From contig NZ_FZNZ01000022.1 of assembly GCF_900187995.1 (NCBI RefSeq), positions 1 through 64,000 of the forward strand: a stretch of 64,000 nucleotides of DNA. Direction: 5' to 3'. The notes under the pieces were generated by a model. That model made no database searches. It saw only the letters and a program-made list of their open reading frames with translations, and had not been told where the DNA came from. The translations under genes were made by a program, and so were the position numbers. Of this stretch, positions 34,439-43,040 are shown in pieces (the first letter of the stretch is position 1; each line of letters opens with the position of its first letter). This DNA is from Prevotella jejuni (GTDB lineage: Bacteria; Bacteroidota; Bacteroidia; Bacteroidales; Bacteroidaceae).

Positions 34439-34539
34439 TTTTATTTGTATTCTTTATTCCTTCGAAGCGTGAATGTAATGCTACAAAGAGCATTGTTTTA
34501 TTACGAAATAACGCCTTTGTTGGTAAAAAATGTTTAAAT

Positions 34540-34644
34540 AATTAGTATAATTAGACTAAATACTTGACTTTCGTTTCCTTTTTACTTACATTTGTACCAG
34601 CCATTTAGTGGATAACATAATATATTTACCAATTAGTCTAATTA
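34540..34644 (+). promoter_or_regulatory. Promoter of the 37-codon gene, flanked by two palindromes
   Basis: CTTG (34563-34566), a 20-base spacer and TACATTTG (34587-34594) form a promoter with an expected start near 34601. A perfect palindrome AATTAGTCTAATT (34631-34643) lies in the 5' leader. A near-perfect sister (TAATTAGACTAA at 34548-34559) lies just upstream of the -33 box. The two share 12 bases in inverted order. Two operator sites for one dimeric regulator are likely. Confidence 0.55.
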
Positions 34645-34660
34645 ATAGGAGGTATTTAAC

Positions 34661-34774
34661 ATGAAAGAAAACAAAACACATGAATTCTTCGAAGACTATG
34701 ACTTCGAGAATCAGAATAGTCGGGAACACACCAACACAGACCAAACGCTTGGTGGAGAGATTTGGTACAACTAA
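34661..34774 (+). CDS. 37-residue peptide gene ending LGG-EIWYN
   Basis: This short gene has an AGGAGG ribosome site 8 bases before the ATG, its own promoter at 34563-34594 and a hairpin terminator at 34812-34852, so I consider it real. The product starts MKENKTHEFFEDYDFE (acidic, aromatic), has a polar Asn/Gln/Thr/His middle and ends DQTLGGEIWYN. A double glycine at residues 31-32 followed by an aromatic pentapeptide recalls leader-processed signalling or RiPP peptides, but the core would be only five residues. No export or maturation gene is adjacent. A regulatory leader peptide is an alternative. I do not know a named family for it. Confidence 0.7.
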   Translation: MKENKTHEFFEDYDFENQNSREHTNTDQTLGGEIWYN

Positions 34775-34811
34775 GTTGTATACATATTAGGTTATATATG
34801 ATATAATAAAT

Positions 34812-34852
34812 AAGAGCGCACTTATCCTATTAGTTTAAGTGTGTTCTTTTTA
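34812..34852 (+). terminator. Terminator of the 37-codon gene
   Basis: AAGAGCGCACTTA pairs with TAAGTGTGTTCTT (with G-U pairs) and is followed by a T-run, about 38 bases after the stop codon. Confidence 0.8.
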
Positions 34853-35035
34853 ATATGTTCATTATTCGTTTACTATAAAAAGAGGTAGTGCCTTAAAATG
34901 ATACCTCCTCTCTTTTGAAGAAACTGTCAAAGTTCTCTTTGTTCGAATTATTTATCCTTTTTGCAACAGCAGTCGAGTTTTTTTGAAGAAGGCGGTAAGC
35001 CTTTTATGATGGACTTTTACTCCTCTTAGAAAAAC

Positions 35036-35562
35036 GATTAACCTTTTCCATGCATACAGTCAAATCTATGTTTAATAAGTGGTGTAGCCTTTTATGGTGG
35101 TTTAAATCTCTCTTTGAAAAACGATTAACCCCTTTCTATGGAAATGGAGAAATCTATGTTTAGGAAATGGTCAAGCCTTTTATGGTGTGTCATCACCACG
35201 CTTAAATAATGATTAATCCTTTGCAAGCATACAGGCAAATCAATGATTAAGGAATGGTCATGCTTTTTATAGTGAACCGTCACCACGTTTAGAATAATGA
35301 TTAACCCTTTCTTTGCAAACGGTCAAATCTATGTTTAAGAAAAGGTCAAGCCTTTTATGGTGAGTCATCACCACGCTTAGAATAATGATTAATCCTTTGC
35401 AAGCATACAGGCAAATCAATGATTAAGGAATGGTCATGCTTTTTATAGTGAATCATCACCACGCTTTGAATAAGGATTAACCCTTTCTTTGCAAACGGTC
35501 AAATCTATGTTTAAGAAATGGCCAAGCCTTTTGTGGTGGGTCATCACCACGCTTTGAACTAT
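35036..35562. repeat. 88-bp tandem array with 176-bp higher-order unit
   Basis: Units begin at GATTAA: 35036, 35123, 35211, 35299, 35387 and 35475 (periods 87 then 88). Units 3 and 5 form one subtype (GCAAGCATACAGGCAAATCA) and units 4 and 6 another (TTTGCAAACGGTCAAATC), so 35211-35386 and 35387-35562 are two copies of a 176-bp dimer, about 94 percent identical by eye. Outer units and both flanks (about 34944-35035 and 35563-35830) are progressively diverged. The period is not a multiple of three and no long frame crosses it, so it is not coding. It sits between the 37-codon gene and the SusC/SusD locus. Confidence 0.92.
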
Positions 35563-35843
35563 GATTTACCCTCTCAACGAAAATACTCAACGATTTTGAA
35601 GAAAGAAGTCAATCTTTTTTTAAGAAAGAGCAGACCTTTTGGTAAAATCTATCACCCTTTTTTGTGAAAAGGGCTTACTTTATTTTGCAAAAATAGTTGT
35701 TGCTTTATGACAAAACTATCGTACTTATTTTTTACAAAGATAATCGAGTTTTTATGAAAGAGCTGGCAATGCTTTTGTAAAGACATTCATCAGTTTTAAA
35801 AAGTTAGTGTTTTTTTTACGGAAAGTGTATTGGGGGGTAGGAA

Positions 35844-35888: not shown

Positions 35889-37166
35889 TTAGAAATCAAC
35901 ACGCCAAACCCCTCTATCGAATACGAATGATTTGTTAGAATCATCGTTACTTGTCATTCGTAAAGACGTTGGATGCTTTGAATCATTGATAGTTAATGTA
36001 TAAGTCGTAGGATTACCATTGGTGAGGAAGGTGTTAGCTATATCCTTCAGTCTAAAATTATTATAGAAGTTAGTGCCATTCTTCTCATCAGCTGTTTTAG
36101 TTCTCGTTATAAAACCAGAGATGGTTAGCTGATCATTTCCACTTACACTATAATTTACTTTGACATCTCCCCAGCCATTCCCAACGTAAGATGAGAAGCT
36201 AAGATAACCTGGCTTGTTACTAAAGAAGAGAGTTACAATAGCATTATTCTGACTTGTTGCGTATGTGGCTACATCACGCCAAATATTCACTTCTGTCGTA
36301 CTACTATAAGTAGTATTAAATGACCAATCGTCGAGGAAAAGAGCTTCCAATGGAGTTGCTGCACGTGGACAAAGTTGTATTGTTTTGTCATTAACATCAA
36401 GCCATTTATCATCAGCAGAATAAGTAAAGCGAGTCATCTTCTTTCCATACAAAGGACTCTCTCGAAGAATCTCCATACCTTCTTTTGTATAAATGAAAGG
36501 AATCTCTATAGTCTTGCCTTCTTTGCCGACGAAAGTTAACGTGTGATATTTCATTTCAACAGGATATGTCTCATTATCGATGATTAGATTATAACGCTCT
36601 GAGTACATTGCTGAAATTGTATTCTTAACATCTGCGAAGAAGTTAGCCCACGTTAGGTTTTCAGGCATTGGAGTTAGAACAACACGATCTCCATGTTTAC
36701 GACCTTCGAGGACTACACTATCTTTTGAACAAGACATCACACGGAACTCAAAATCGCCTTCAAAACCTTTACCATTTTGTCCGATAGCCTTACCATTCAG
36801 TACTCCAACAGGATCAGAATACTTATGTAAAGCGCTATTAAAAGAGTCGAACGAAAGCAAGACACCTTGTCCCTGTTGAATCTTATAATGCGATGTTGCC
36901 TTCACATTCTCTGTTTCTTCTTCACAGAAAACATTGTTATCTGTTCCGAACTTGCAGAGAATATTGTATCCACCGAAGCCGCCAGAACCTTGATAAGCCA
37001 TTCGCCAGCCGTTAGGTGCTGCAGTCAAGATATCTTTTGTATTTTTGATAGACTCAGCAATACGTGCAGCTGAAGGCTTATTAAATGCATCTTCCACTTC
37101 TGGTGTGCAAGAAGCTACAAGTATAAATGCAGTTGTAGCTATTAATAACCTATATACATTTTTCAT
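35889..37166 (-). CDS. DUF4302 lipoprotein
   Basis: The 425-residue product has a lipoprotein signal (MKNVYRLLIATTAFILVASC, lipidated Cys at 20). The mature part is beta-rich and matches the DUF4302 family seen downstream of SusC/SusD pairs: a start with APNGWRMAYQGSGGFGGYNI and a Gly-poor beta C-terminus. Its function is unknown; surface capture or processing of the imported substrate is inferred from position. It is the last gene of a four-gene operon. Confidence 0.82.
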   Translation of the reverse strand: MKNVYRLLIATTAFILVASCTPEVEDAFNKPSAARIAESIKNTKDILTAAPNGWRMAYQGSGGFGGYNILCKFGTDNNVFCEEETENVKATSHYKIQQGQGVLLSFDSFNSALHKYSDPVGVLNGKAIGQNGKGFEGDFEFRVMSCSKDSVVLEGRKHGDRVVLTPMPENLTWANFFADVKNTISAMYSERYNLIIDNETYPVEMKYHTLTFVGKEGKTIEIPFIYTKEGMEILRESPLYGKKMTRFTYSADDKWLDVNDKTIQLCPRAATPLEALFLDDWSFNTTYSSTTEVNIWRDVATYATSQNNAIVTLFFSNKPGYLSFSSYVGNGWGDVKVNYSVSGNDQLTISGFITRTKTADEKNGTNFYNNFRLKDIANTFLTNGNPTTYTLTINDSKHPTSLRMTSNDDSNKSFVFDRGVWRVDF

Positions 37167-37175
37167 ACTTAAATC

Positions 37176-38105
37176 TTAATTTAAAGTTTCCAGATCCAGA
37201 CTATTTACTTCGCTTGCACGTCGCAAAACAATGGTACGTAGCTTATCGATATCTACACCCCAAGAGTCCTTTAGATAACTACGAATGATACTCAACTTAG
37301 CGAGAATTGCCTTCTTACCAGTTTCGTCACCATTAGCAGCCACTGCCTGAGCAAGTCTTTTCTGCCACATTACATCAGTATCCGTTACATAACATGAGAA
37401 CACTTCAGCGAAGTCCTCGTTGTATTCGCTACTTGCATAACCTGTTACATAACCTTCTTTACCTGCATCTTCATCTTTTACGTTTACCCAATCAGCAGAG
37501 TGATACTCCTTAGTGATTGTACGAAAATCAGTAGAGTAATCCTTCAACTGCGTAAGGATATGTGCGAACTCATGATGCATTGTATGGAAATAAGCACGAT
37601 TTAAATCGAAATTACTACCCGAAGCAAATGGATTTGTTTGTTCAATATATAGATGTGCAGGGTCTAAGTAATTTACTTGGAAGAGATTCACACGAATACC
37701 ACCTTCAGCAAAACCAAGTACAATAGAGCCGTCATTCTTATGTTGAGCTGAACCAATCAGCTGAAACTCTCTAAAGCAATGTTGTTTAAGGAAGTCTGGT
37801 CCCATCAACTCGGTATATGCATCAAGCCACACGTGTTTGATAATCTTAGCCAAGGCAATAGACTTCTTAATGTCTGCAGGGCTAACATTATAGCCCATGT
37901 CACTATTCTGGTCAATATAAAGATAATTGAACCGAATGTTGTAAGGTTCAGTATAATTTTTATTTAACCACTTATCAAATGCTGTTGAGTCTGTATTCTC
38001 CTCTCGTGTAGGGAATATAGAGTTGTTTGCATCAACATCATCATTCGAACAAGCAATAGTCAAAGCAGCTACAGCTGCGAAAAGAAATATTTTTATAGTA
38101 TTCAT
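37176..38105 (-). CDS. Substrate import-associated zinc metallohydrolase lipoprotein
   Basis: The 309-residue lipoprotein (signal ending TIACSN) contains a zincin motif, HHEFAHILTQ, near residue 178, with a downstream glutamate-rich segment (SSEYNEDFAEVFSCY) that can supply a third ligand. It matches the metallohydrolase lipoproteins that occur next to SusC/SusD and DUF4302 genes. A surface peptidase that prepares the substrate for import is the likely role, so this locus may take up peptides or protein-derived material rather than glycans (inference). Confidence 0.82.
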   Translation of the reverse strand: MNTIKIFLFAAVAALTIACSNDDVDANNSIFPTREENTDSTAFDKWLNKNYTEPYNIRFNYLYIDQNSDMGYNVSPADIKKSIALAKIIKHVWLDAYTELMGPDFLKQHCFREFQLIGSAQHKNDGSIVLGFAEGGIRVNLFQVNYLDPAHLYIEQTNPFASGSNFDLNRAYFHTMHHEFAHILTQLKDYSTDFRTITKEYHSADWVNVKDEDAGKEGYVTGYASSEYNEDFAEVFSCYVTDTDVMWQKRLAQAVAANGDETGKKAILAKLSIIRSYLKDSWGVDIDKLRTIVLRRASEVNSLDLETLN

Positions 38106-38122
38106 ACATTGTCCTCCCTTTT

Positions 38123-39700
38123 TTAATTCTCACGTGGATTAGGTTCCAGTCCAGCTTCGATTACATCAGAAGGTAACTGTAAAGCACCTCTGAGGTCACC
38201 CGATTTGAAGTAGACAGGATCTTCACCATCGATGAGGTGAGTTATTCTAATACCATAACGTTTGATATCCATAAATCGCATTCCCAGTTGGCAAGTCTCT
38301 ATACGTCGCATCTGTAGCAAGATATAAAGTAAGTTCGTCTGCGTCTCGTCAATTGAGAAGCCTTGTGGGTGCAATGCTTTCTTAAAGCCAAAGTCCGATT
38401 TATTCGTGATCTCTTCTGGCACCAAAGGTACTGTTGCTAAGAAATCATTCACAGATTGTAGAGTCAGTGTAGGACGAGTTGCTGTTACCACGCCATTTTT
38501 CTCTACATTAGGAGCACAGTGTGCGTTAATCCATAGATTCATATCATTCAGTGCTTCCGTGTACTTCTTCAAGTGGATTTCCGCTTCAGCGCGAACAAGC
38601 AGAGTTTCGTCAGCTGTGAGCACAGCATCAACAGTACGAATAAATCCTCTACTTCTTGCAGCATCAGTATATTCAAACTCATTAGACAAACGGGGGTAAG
38701 CAATCTGCTGGCTATTACCATAGAGTAAGTGCGACTCATAAAGCGTGTTATCAACAGAGCCTGCTCCCCATGGCATCTTTGTCCAGTAGAGTTCATTAAG
38801 AATAACATCGTAACCTGAATTAAAACGCTTATATCCTCCATAGAAAGTGGCAGCACCAGCAGAAGACACCGCCGTCTGTAGCATAAAGTTAGCATTCTCA
38901 CTTGAGTTAATGTAAGCATCGTGAATAGCCCATCTTCCTCCGAGAGTCTTATAGCGATAGACTGTGCGTAAGAGAGAAGCAGGCTGAGAGCCTAATGCTT
39001 TAGAAGCATATTCAGCAGCTTTATCCCACTTCTGGTAATAGAGATTGAAGCGTGCTGCGAATGCGTATGCTGCTTTCAGATTAAAGTGATATTTAGGTAC
39101 TGTCATATAAGATTCGCTTACATGAGGTAAAGCAGCTTCAATATCAGCATTAATATTCTCATAGAGTTCACGAAGTGTGCCACGTTTATCTATTGAACGG
39201 TTAGGCTCTTTTGGATAAGGCAATCCAAGATACTTATCAGCCTTTGAGTCGTCATACGCCATACAGAAAGCAGTTGCAAGTCGGAACATTGACCATGCTC
39301 GACAGAGTAAAGCCTCAGCTTTCACAGCCTCAACATCTCCATCTTTCACCTTGCTAAGGTCAGCAATAGCCTGATTAGCATTACCTATAGCATAATACAT
39401 CTTTCCCCAGACATGTCGTGGGTCATCATTTCCTGTAGTATTCACGTCTTTCCAACGAAATAGTTGGTCTTGATTTGTTTGATAATTGAAAGTTTTTCCA
39501 TTATCCATTACGTTATCACTACAATACTCCATCATATAATCAGTGGACCCATCAGGATAAGCTGACGACACCAACTGTGTAGCCTTTTCAAAGTTGTCTA
39601 CCTCAGCTCGATCATCAGGCAACTTATCCAAGAAGTCATTACAGGACGAGAATGTAAACAGTAATCCCACTCCTGCCAATAGAATATTTATCTTTTTCAT
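38123..39700 (-). CDS. SusD/RagB-family outer-membrane lipoprotein
   Basis: The 525-residue surface lipoprotein (signal MKKINILLAGVGLLFTFSSC, lipidated Cys at about 20) is the substrate-binding lid of the SusC transporter. It starts NDFLDKLPDDRAEVDN, as expected for the family, and has TPR-like helices (ALLCRAWSMFRLATAF, AAYAFAARFNLYYQKWDKA) and the C-terminal SusD domain with LLYILLQMRRIETCQLGMRF. It follows the susC-like gene by 31 bases. No glycoside hydrolase is next to it, so the substrate is not shown by context. Confidence 0.94.
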   Translation of the reverse strand: MKKINILLAGVGLLFTFSSCNDFLDKLPDDRAEVDNFEKATQLVSSAYPDGSTDYMMEYCSDNVMDNGKTFNYQTNQDQLFRWKDVNTTGNDDPRHVWGKMYYAIGNANQAIADLSKVKDGDVEAVKAEALLCRAWSMFRLATAFCMAYDDSKADKYLGLPYPKEPNRSIDKRGTLRELYENINADIEAALPHVSESYMTVPKYHFNLKAAYAFAARFNLYYQKWDKAAEYASKALGSQPASLLRTVYRYKTLGGRWAIHDAYINSSENANFMLQTAVSSAGAATFYGGYKRFNSGYDVILNELYWTKMPWGAGSVDNTLYESHLLYGNSQQIAYPRLSNEFEYTDAARSRGFIRTVDAVLTADETLLVRAEAEIHLKKYTEALNDMNLWINAHCAPNVEKNGVVTATRPTLTLQSVNDFLATVPLVPEEITNKSDFGFKKALHPQGFSIDETQTNLLYILLQMRRIETCQLGMRFMDIKRYGIRITHLIDGEDPVYFKSGDLRGALQLPSDVIEAGLEPNPREN

Positions 39701-39731
39701 TTTGTAGTTCTCCTAATTATATATGTTAGTA

Positions 39732-42700
39732 TCAGATTCCGAGACGCAATGTCAGTGTGAGCTGACGAGGAACAGGTAGAGCCACACCACCCGCATTATA
39801 GAATTCAGGGTCCTGACCATTGAGTTTCTTATCAGAATAAATCAAGAAGAGGTTAGTAGCCTGAAGCTTTAAGCTCAATGAACTTAATGAAAGATGTCTT
39901 ATCATCTGTACAGGGAAATCATAACTCAGTGATATTTCCTTCATGCGAATAAAGTCTCCTTTGGCAATACGCTCCGTTGAGTAGTTGTATGCGTTATAAG
40001 CACGATACAAATAGCCATCTTGCTGCAGTGATCTAAGGTCAGCTATAGCAGGGATATTCGTATGCTTCTCATCACCAGCCTCAGTCCATCGATTACGGAA
40101 CTCCTTAGGCATCGCAGACATATCAGAATAGCTTGTGCTAAAGAATGGGTCAAGGCGTACCTTATTACCAAAAGCGTAAGTGGTAAAGATACTTAAGTGC
40201 CAACCTTTATAAGAGAATGTGTTACCAAATGAGCCTGTAATCGTTGGATCTGTTGGACCCTCATAGACTAAGTGGTCGAGATTATAGCTCTGGAAATCCA
40301 CACCACTTGTTGTAAGGTTGCCATTCTGGTTGATAACCTGTGGTATTCCATGCTCGTTAAGTCCCTTGAAGTCCCAAGAGAAAAGTGCACGATAAGGATA
40401 ACCTACCATTGTGAAACCGCCTCCACTCACCATTGACATGATACGTGAACGGCTATCGAGGTCGGTTACACGTGTATTAACATGAGAGAAGATAAAGTCA
40501 GTAGTCCATTGGAAATTCTTCGTCATGATGTTCTTACTTGAGATAGACAGTTCCTCACCATGCGACTTCATACTTGCAACGTTAGCATATTCAGTAATTG
40601 TACCCTTCGTACCATTTGTTGTACGTGGACCAATAAGGTCGTAGTTATTACGTGTGTACCAGTCGAATACAACATTCAAGCGGTTATTTAAGAATCCTAA
40701 GTCTACACCAATGTTAAACTCATGTTTCTTCTCATAAGTAAGATCAGGGTTAGCAAAGTTCCAAATCTCTAATCCAGACTCTTTATCAATAGCAAATGGA
40801 CGCCAGAAATTTGTACTTGTAATCATCACCTGTGAATTGGTAACAGCAGGTTTATCACCCGTCAGAGAGTATGACATACGTAAGGTAGCGTGTGTCATTG
40901 CACTCTTAAATGTCTTTTGGAACCATGGCTCCTCATGTGCATTCCACACACCTGACACGTTCCATGTAGGTAGCCATCGAGCCGTGCGAGCTTTACCGAG
41001 TCGGTTACTTCCTTCATAACGAGTTGTAAAGTTGGCAGCATAACGTCCCTTCCATGAATAGTTTGCTGTACCGAAGAAAGACACGTCACGGTTGTAGCTA
41101 TTAGAGAGACTATAATACAACATATTCTCTTCTACAGCATGCTTGAAGTAATGATAGTCGTAATTAGCTAAGAAACCTAATCCGTACTGCATACCCACAC
41201 CTTCAAAGAAACTACGGTTACGCTTTGTATTGTTAATCTCCATACCTCCATAGAGGTTCAAGATATGTTTCTCGTTGAATACATCATTATAGCTTGCCGT
41301 TGCACGGAAATCCCAGCTATTCATGCGATACTTTGTTTCGTCATAGAAACCTCCCTTAGGTAATACAGAGTATTTCAAAGAGTTAGGCTGGTCTGGATCA
41401 AGATACAACCAAGGGTTCGCATTGCGAATAGTAGCGTCGTCCATAGCACGATAAGCCATTGCCATGTTAGAGCCTTCACGAATCTGGTAAGCTTGAGAAG
41501 TGATAGAATACTTATATGCACCAAGGAGAGCGATTTGTACCTTACTGATAGGCTTATACTTCAATTCTGCTTGCATCTTCAAATCGAGAACATCAAAGTC
41601 AATGAAATTATTTGCTAACTCATGATGTATATTAAAAGGTGCATAGTTGCGAACATAGAAAGTATTTGGATCTAAGGCACGTGAGGTGTTAATAGCATAA
41701 GAATAAGGATTGATGTCAAAACCACGATTTACCTCACCCGTTACCACGTTTACATCTTGATTAACTGAACCAGGGGCACGTTGCTTACGATATGAAGTGT
41801 TACCAATAAGATTTAAGGAAACTTTCTTACTTAGGTTATAGTTTGCATTAACAGAGTAAGTCATACGACGAACCTTGCTCTGCTCGGTCCATCCTGGGTC
41901 ATCCATGAATGAGAATGATGTATAATATTGAGCTTTCTCCGTACCAGATGACATAGAGATAGAATGGTTCATAGAGACAGAATTGCTGAAAAGCTCTTTG
42001 AACCAGTTGGTATTACGCATCTCTGCTTCACGAAGATAATCATTAATAGCAGTTGGGTTATTTGCAATACCAAATCGTCCGTTAGTCTCATCGTAAGTAT
42101 TCAGCAGCGTGTACATCTTACCGTAGATACCACTTGTGGCTGCACGCATCGTGCGTGAAAAGGAGAATAAGCCATCAGCAGCCATCTCTTTATAAATACC
42201 CATTTGTTCCTGTGAGTTCATGATATTAAATTGTGAGTAGCTTGGACGCATACGCATCGTGAACTCACCAGTATAGCTAATACGGTTATTACCAGCTTTA
42301 CCTTTCTTTGTTGTCACAACAATCACACCACCCATGGCACGTGCACCATAGATAGATGTTGCAGAACCGTCCTTCAGAATCTGGAAACTTTCGATGTCGT
42401 CAGCATTTAGTCCTGCAATAGCAGAAGAGATAAGTGTTGCAGCATCTCCTGATGACAAGTTGTCTGCATTGACCTCTGTTACATCTTCCATGATGACACC
42501 ATCAACTACCCAGAGTGGTTTTGAGGAACCATAGATAGAGGTAGCACCACGCACACGAATCTTCGGTGCCGTACCGAATGTTCCTGACACGTTTTGAACA
42601 CTCACACCTGCCGCACGACCTTCGAGCGAACGACTCACGTCTGCCATACCATCAAGTTTTGCTTTTGAAGCATCAATCTTGGTGGCTGCACCAGAGAAGA

Positions 42701-43040
42701 GTCGTTTGTCTTGTTGGGTCATACCCGTTACGACAACCTCCGTAAGCTGATGATCGTCATTGCTTAGGGCAACCTTCATGCCGTCTTTAGGCGTAAGGGT
42801 CTGTGTGACCATACCAATGTAACTGACTACGAGTTTCTTTCCTGCAGGGACATCGATTGAGAAACGGCCGTCTATATCAGTGACAGTACCCGTCGTAGTA
42901 CCTTGTACCATGACAGACGCACCGATGATGGCTTCTCCATCTCCCTGAGAAACTACGGTTCCATTAATCTTTGTCTGTCCGAATGCTGTGCCTAACGACA
43001 GAATCAGACCAAACAAGAATAGAGCAATTCTTTTTTCCAT
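39732..43040 (-). CDS. SusC/RagA-family TonB-dependent transporter
   Basis: The 1102-residue outer-membrane transporter has a signal peptide (ending GTAFG), a carboxypeptidase-D-like N-terminal domain (INGTVVSQGDGEAIIGASV), a SusC-type TonB box region (EVVVTGMTQQDKRLFSGA), a plug with RVRGATSIYGSS and PLWVVDGV, and a beta barrel ending LTLTLRLGI. It forms the channel for the SusD-bound substrate. It is first in the operon with SusD-like, metallohydrolase and DUF4302 genes, driven by a consensus promoter at 43197-43228 with a leader of about 150 bases. Confidence 0.95.
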   Translation of the reverse strand: MEKRIALFLFGLILSLGTAFGQTKINGTVVSQGDGEAIIGASVMVQGTTTGTVTDIDGRFSIDVPAGKKLVVSYIGMVTQTLTPKDGMKVALSNDDHQLTEVVVTGMTQQDKRLFSGAATKIDASKAKLDGMADVSRSLEGRAAGVSVQNVSGTFGTAPKIRVRGATSIYGSSKPLWVVDGVIMEDVTEVNADNLSSGDAATLISSAIAGLNADDIESFQILKDGSATSIYGARAMGGVIVVTTKKGKAGNNRISYTGEFTMRMRPSYSQFNIMNSQEQMGIYKEMAADGLFSFSRTMRAATSGIYGKMYTLLNTYDETNGRFGIANNPTAINDYLREAEMRNTNWFKELFSNSVSMNHSISMSSGTEKAQYYTSFSFMDDPGWTEQSKVRRMTYSVNANYNLSKKVSLNLIGNTSYRKQRAPGSVNQDVNVVTGEVNRGFDINPYSYAINTSRALDPNTFYVRNYAPFNIHHELANNFIDFDVLDLKMQAELKYKPISKVQIALLGAYKYSITSQAYQIREGSNMAMAYRAMDDATIRNANPWLYLDPDQPNSLKYSVLPKGGFYDETKYRMNSWDFRATASYNDVFNEKHILNLYGGMEINNTKRNRSFFEGVGMQYGLGFLANYDYHYFKHAVEENMLYYSLSNSYNRDVSFFGTANYSWKGRYAANFTTRYEGSNRLGKARTARWLPTWNVSGVWNAHEEPWFQKTFKSAMTHATLRMSYSLTGDKPAVTNSQVMITSTNFWRPFAIDKESGLEIWNFANPDLTYEKKHEFNIGVDLGFLNNRLNVVFDWYTRNNYDLIGPRTTNGTKGTITEYANVASMKSHGEELSISSKNIMTKNFQWTTDFIFSHVNTRVTDLDSRSRIMSMVSGGGFTMVGYPYRALFSWDFKGLNEHGIPQVINQNGNLTTSGVDFQSYNLDHLVYEGPTDPTITGSFGNTFSYKGWHLSIFTTYAFGNKVRLDPFFSTSYSDMSAMPKEFRNRWTEAGDEKHTNIPAIADLRSLQQDGYLYRAYNAYNYSTERIAKGDFIRMKEISLSYDFPVQMIRHLSLSSLSLKLQATNLFLIYSDKKLNGQDPEFYNAGGVALPVPRQLTLTLRLGI

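Follow-up and report, generated by a model that had tools for sequence, protein, structure and literature searches.

Described systems and the Prevotella tail gene

C-terminal docking tails are known from the SSB tail and from CP12, in which a short conserved motif at the end of a disordered acidic stretch is the functional part. PqqA and MftA, the precursors of RiPP-derived redox cofactors, are short, with a variable N-terminal part and their highest conservation near the C-terminus, and they are encoded alongside a dedicated radical-SAM SPASM enzyme. Double-glycine leaders carry conserved hydrophobic positions at -4, -7 and -12. In 2019 Sberro et al. reportedly described conserved small-protein families of human microbiomes, that is, lineage-restricted small ORFs conserved as proteins and having no domain assignment. 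Among the Gly-Gly motif peptides of Bacteroidales, the leader preceding the glycines spans about 15-27 residues, the mature part after them is long (42 aa in bacteroidetocins A and B), and most of the peptide clusters carry a C39 transporter (PMC6671954, PMC10352776). The translation of small ORFs has been treated elsewhere (PMC7324362).

Here we describe a short gene (the tail gene) in a stretch of 64,000 nucleotides from Prevotella jejuni, referred to as the window, whose features are collected in Table 1. The tail protein resembles the SSB tail and CP12 in that a short conserved C-terminal motif ends an acidic stretch predicted to be disordered, but it bears no sequence relation to them and has a putative partner only. 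It also shares the general layout of PqqA and MftA, whereas its gene lacks an adjacent maturase and is tracked by no SPASM enzyme. Like the bacteroidetocins and other GG-motif RiPPs, it is a short Bacteroidales peptide with Gly-Gly; it differs from them in having five residues after the glycines, no cluster, and carrier genomes that in part lack C39. It also resembles the small-protein families of human microbiomes, as a lineage-restricted small ORF conserved as a protein and without a domain assignment.

Table 1. Features of the tail gene locus (window coordinates).
Feature	Position	Strand	Basis
Conserved upstream box GTAAAAAATGTTTAAATAATT	34523..34543	+	TAAAAAATRTTTAAA in 11 of 14 close relatives (alignment)
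Upstream dyad TTAGACTAA, first of two proposed operators	34551..34559	.	Found in 1 of 14 relatives, the window species
-33 element TTG of Bacteroidetes-type promoter	34564..34566	+	Sequence, alignment
-7 element TACATTTG (TAnnTTTG)	34587..34594	+	20 nt after TTG
5'-UTR dyad AATTAGTCTAATT, second proposed operator	34631..34643	.	Alignment of 14 relatives
Shine-Dalgarno AGGAGG	34647..34652	+	8 nt before ATG
ORF, 37 codons + TAA, product MKENKTHEFFEDYDFENQNSREHTNTDQTLGGEIWYN	34661..34774	+	Sequence, conservation in relatives, purifying selection; ATG at 34661, stop at 34772-34774 (sequence, translation)
N-terminal motif FFEDY	34685..34699	+	Family form hydrophobic-[YFI]-x-[DE], 44 of 50 members
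C-terminal tail LGGEIWYN, near-invariant	34748..34771	+	Alignments, tail codon table, genome scans
Intrinsic terminator hairpin + U-tract	about 34812..34851	+	Folding; about 37 nt after stop

Conservation and distribution of the family

The ORF is a genuine gene under purifying selection. Relatives of the close clade gave pN/pS values of 0.12-0.32 when compared with the window gene, and in that clade differences over all pairs numbered 410, 432 and 1230 at codon positions 1, 2 and 3, respectively. A protein search of 299 genomes of the genus identified five full-length relatives with 65-78% identity, and a profile built from these returned more relatives, together with short frames alike in little but the C-terminal end. 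Two of the outcomes that the sequence-only reading had named as telling against it, a lack of homologous frames in related strains and frame-disrupting substitutions between strains, did not occur. The shortness of the frame and the lack of a Pfam or NCBIfam model are what a spurious ORF would also present, but the reading frame conserved in relatives, the purifying selection and the members found by genome scans leave that explanation with hardly any credibility. The family is undescribed in the libraries searched and is found in Prevotella and Segatella only; no Pfam, NCBIfam or PHROGs model matched the tail protein, the one match of a PDB profile search was an artefact of repeats in a lectin, and the tail letters were not found in a literature search.

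Members are as a rule 33-49 aa long and mostly acidic. The near-invariant C-terminal consensus is [LMVI]GG[ED][IVLF]WYx-stop, its last residue being variable (N, E, Q, T, D), and a 32-member profile identified the tail variants GGEYWYN, GGELWFN/D, SGEFWYN, DGEIWYN and GGEAWHL. This invariance is partly built in, since the patterns that listed most members fixed part of the tail; the residue before the glycines and the hydrophobic residue after the glutamate were unfixed in those patterns and are still constrained, and profile searches without a fixed tail also return it. The tail is kept with free use of synonymous codons and the remainder of the protein diverges. The double glycine does begin a short conserved C-terminal segment, as had been proposed. 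A second motif, hydrophobic-[YFI]-x-[DE], lies near the N-terminus in 44 of 50 members, against a rate of 22.5% when their residues are shuffled, and the linker joining it to the tail varies in length.

The distribution of the gene was surveyed with a strict degenerate pattern, GG[D/E]IWYN followed by a stop, in one genome per species for 84,980 species, which yielded 20 places. Sixteen of these are true members, all short ORFs of Prevotella or Segatella, and derive from P. vespertina, P. multiformis, P. veroralis, P. dentasini, P. histicola, P. brunnea, P. corporis and P. denticola, from S. buccae, S. copri, S. albensis and S. baroniae, and from uncultured rumen Prevotella. Rejected places comprised three inside a Cellulophaga protein that continues past the match, and one 8-residue frame in a Cyclobacteriaceae MAG. 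When loosened to GG[D/E]xWYx-stop, the pattern matched 52 of 276 Prevotella genomes at one place each (the reversed control pattern gave four matches), and the 32-member profile matched 61 of the same genomes, a few by chance; by pattern and profile alike, there is essentially one place per genome. Only about 20% of the sampled Prevotella genomes score, which leaves two readings, a dispensable gene or one that is under-detected. Across 247 genomes of the order, short frames gave a single match, the one in the window itself; all other matches fell in long frames at E > 0.01. No homologues were identified on mobile elements, the plasmid and viral-contig searches giving no match and the phage search only one at E=5, and the gene is thus not classed as phage or plasmid cargo.

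One genome (G703) possesses two copies 1.3 kb apart (locus L152, 5294-5416 and 6573-6704 in reverse-complement coordinates). The second retains the tail frame (LDGEIWYN) with a broken start region and N-terminal frame, and therefore looks like a decaying duplicate.

Transcription unit and gene neighbourhood

The sequence-only reading had presented the locus as an independent transcription unit, and its own promoter, strong ribosome site, terminator and conservation bear this out. The Bacteroidetes-type promoter is kept: all 14 close relatives have TAnnTTTG at a distance of 73-75 nt from the ATG on its upstream side. The ribosome site is as rare as had been stated, AGGAGG occurring within 20 nt upstream of one of the 36 long ORFs in the window; AGGAG or GGAGG precedes 17 of 49 family members. 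Folding of positions 34800-34860 gave -20.4 kcal/mol, and the hairpin lies within the 40 bases of the stop originally claimed. A terminator was scored for 26 of 50 members, compared to 3.2% of shuffles. The conserved box GTAAAAAATGTTTAAATAATT, which precedes the -33 element by about 20-40 nt, may be an activator site or a UP-like A-tract; no second good copy was identified in the genome above control level. In one subgroup of members, a conserved CGCAGTTCCACAACC was also observed after the stop and before the terminator (L086, L092, L096, L102, L104 and L107).

Two dyads flanking the promoter had been read as paired operators. Both are present in the sequence, but the pairing is not supported, as the upstream dyad is confined to the window species and 'paired operators' is consequently a feature of one sequence. 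In the downstream dyad, which contains TTAGTCTAA at 34633-34641, TTAG-N-CTAA is kept in 9 of 14 relatives; its right half (CTAATT) and the adjacent ribosome site are near-invariant, and its left half is not. This element is single-copy, with no further site in the genome above control level, and loose matches to AATTAGNCTAATT occur at chance across the whole window (10 found versus 7.9 expected), the three best being at this locus. The 5' region could hold one site, or form a translation-enhancing leader. A short free-standing unit with a terminator and a 5' UTR conserved in the close clade would also suit a dual-function transcript, in which a roughly 250-nt RNA acts as a base-pairing sRNA and encodes the peptide as well. 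Conservation between clades, however, lies at the protein level with third positions varying freely, and Rfam gave no match at the locus; we consider a dual-function transcript improbable.

The surroundings of the gene change from clade to clade. In the melaninogenica-like clade, together with P. multiformis, P. denticola and P. histicola, it comes after gldE and a gene resembling 4'-phosphopantetheinyl transferases; S. copri, S. baroniae and P. corporis have another gene next to it; and in a rumen group it is located between yet other genes of housekeeping type. The clades share no neighbour, and the gene thus has no operon partner and is monocistronic in layout. The next downstream gene is on the opposite strand in 33 of 49 loci, and a same-strand ORF within 150 nt downstream was found in only two of the 49.

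These arrangements bear on the earlier suggestion of a regulatory leader peptide, in which the conserved C-terminus would stall the ribosome and control a downstream gene. A C-terminus that is invariant right up to the stop codon is what such an arrest peptide would show, as is a perfect inverted repeat, TACAAC-TAA-GTTGTA (34766-34780), that spans the stop codon in the window. However, this repeat is kept in only part of the close clade and has been lost in others, including P. veroralis and P. vespertina, and the gene is followed by a terminator and then usually by a gene on the opposite strand. With clade-varying, mostly opposite-strand neighbours and terminators, a cis-acting leader is largely refuted by synteny and practically ruled out.

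Two further features adjoin the gene in the window. Downstream, positions 35025-35572 hold a tandem array of about six copies of an 88-bp unit, with a 176-bp higher-order period (90% match) and no evident coding function. Beyond it lies a SusC/SusD/TIGR04549 zinc-metallohydrolase/lipoprotein operon (35889-43040, minus strand). A similar operon is found near the tail gene in P. vespertina (L015 33-6732), its proteins being 26-57% identical, and is absent in the other relatives examined; such operons are common, and this proximity is probably a coincidence.

Export, modification and docking of the tail

By inspection, the N-termini of family members are polar and charged with no hydrophobic stretch; no Sec signal is visible, which would place the protein outside the Sec-secreted class. 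Secretion through double-glycine processing, as the sequence-only reading had envisaged, is not supported by the distribution of the C39 peptidase, which is present in 23 of 30 carrier and 14 of 22 non-carrier genomes. The domain is absent from seven carriers (G156, G507, G542, G069, G482, G583 and G255), several of them closed or nearly so, and cleavage at LGG by a C39 transporter therefore cannot be a general mechanism; C39 is not needed. No NCBIfam GG-leader model matched the 32 members at E<=1, bar one chance hit to a lasso model (E=0.15), and with neither a consistent peptidase nor a leader model the protein does not belong to the C39/PCAT-processed class. A secreted pheromone, freed as EIWYN by a cut after LGG, would account for a conserved extreme C-terminus following a double glycine and for a last residue that can vary. 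It is nevertheless improbable given the missing Sec signal and the C39 distribution, and because the hydrophobic position that is conserved here is -3 rather than the -4/-7/-12 of GG leaders and no receptor gene travels with the tail gene.

The possibility that the protein is a RiPP precursor, also raised from the sequence, fares somewhat better. The C-terminal GGE(I)WY(N) would be modified and released by enzymes encoded elsewhere, with the N-terminal motif as a possible leader recognition site, a variable linker, and the invariant aromatic C-terminus as a 'core'; conservation that peaks in this core, as it does in PqqA and MftA, would make a cofactor-like or signalling product most likely. 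However, the flanks of about 50 loci contain no shared biosynthetic gene. One carrier (G568) lacks the SPASM radical-SAM domain, and in many others there is a single SPASM protein, whose size also occurs in non-carriers, as does the size of that in G000. SPASM proteins show no association with the tail gene, non-carriers having as many, and with no adjacent or co-occurring maturase the protein falls outside the radical-SAM (SPASM) precursor class. Matches to LanB (PF04738) were found in none of 10 carriers, the control genomes being without a match too. A RiPP precursor thus stays conceivable, without a nearby maturase or a matching SPASM enzyme, and we regard it as unlikely; it is less likely still that the tail GG-[E/D]-[I/V/L/F]-W-Y forms the core of a Prevotella cofactor or signal, derived from a peptide and so far unrecognised, that is made by a non-SPASM enzyme encoded away from its precursor. 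Were the tail modified, a dominant genus associated with humans would have a peptide-derived product that is new.

Across oral, gut and rumen Prevotella and Segatella, one gene per genome retains eight fixed C-terminal residues as the rest drifts, a pattern suggestive of a single conserved event, either an interaction or a processing step, that is specific to the group. A synthetic peptide could serve directly as bait, the conserved part being so short, and this makes the question easy to address by experiment. As the best explanation, we tentatively favour a cytoplasmic microprotein that docks through its tail on a conserved partner. The gene, lineage-specific, single-copy and monocistronic, would yield a small, acidic, disordered protein that stays in the cytoplasm, where its tail, hydrophobic-GG-[E/D]-hydrophobic-W-Y-x-COOH, might serve as a short linear docking motif for a conserved Prevotella protein. 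A second contact may come from the N-terminal hydrophobic-[Y/F]-x-[D/E] motif, leaving the linker between them free to vary in sequence and length, and the protein, made under its own promoter, could act as an adaptor or competitive inhibitor. We infer the cytoplasmic location, binding partner and regulatory role, and docking appears to be the most economical mechanism.

Docking is supported by the coding conservation, tail constraint, lineage restriction, single copy, own promoter and terminators, as well as by the clade-varying neighbours, the charged N-terminus, the lack of a mobile context and structural modelling. Against it count the partly built-in invariance of the tail and the small share of sampled Prevotella genomes that score. 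An AlphaFold prediction with 17 sequences gave no fold (mean pLDDT 62, pTM 0.13), with the tail as the best-confidence block, which suggests a disordered protein carrying two linear motifs.
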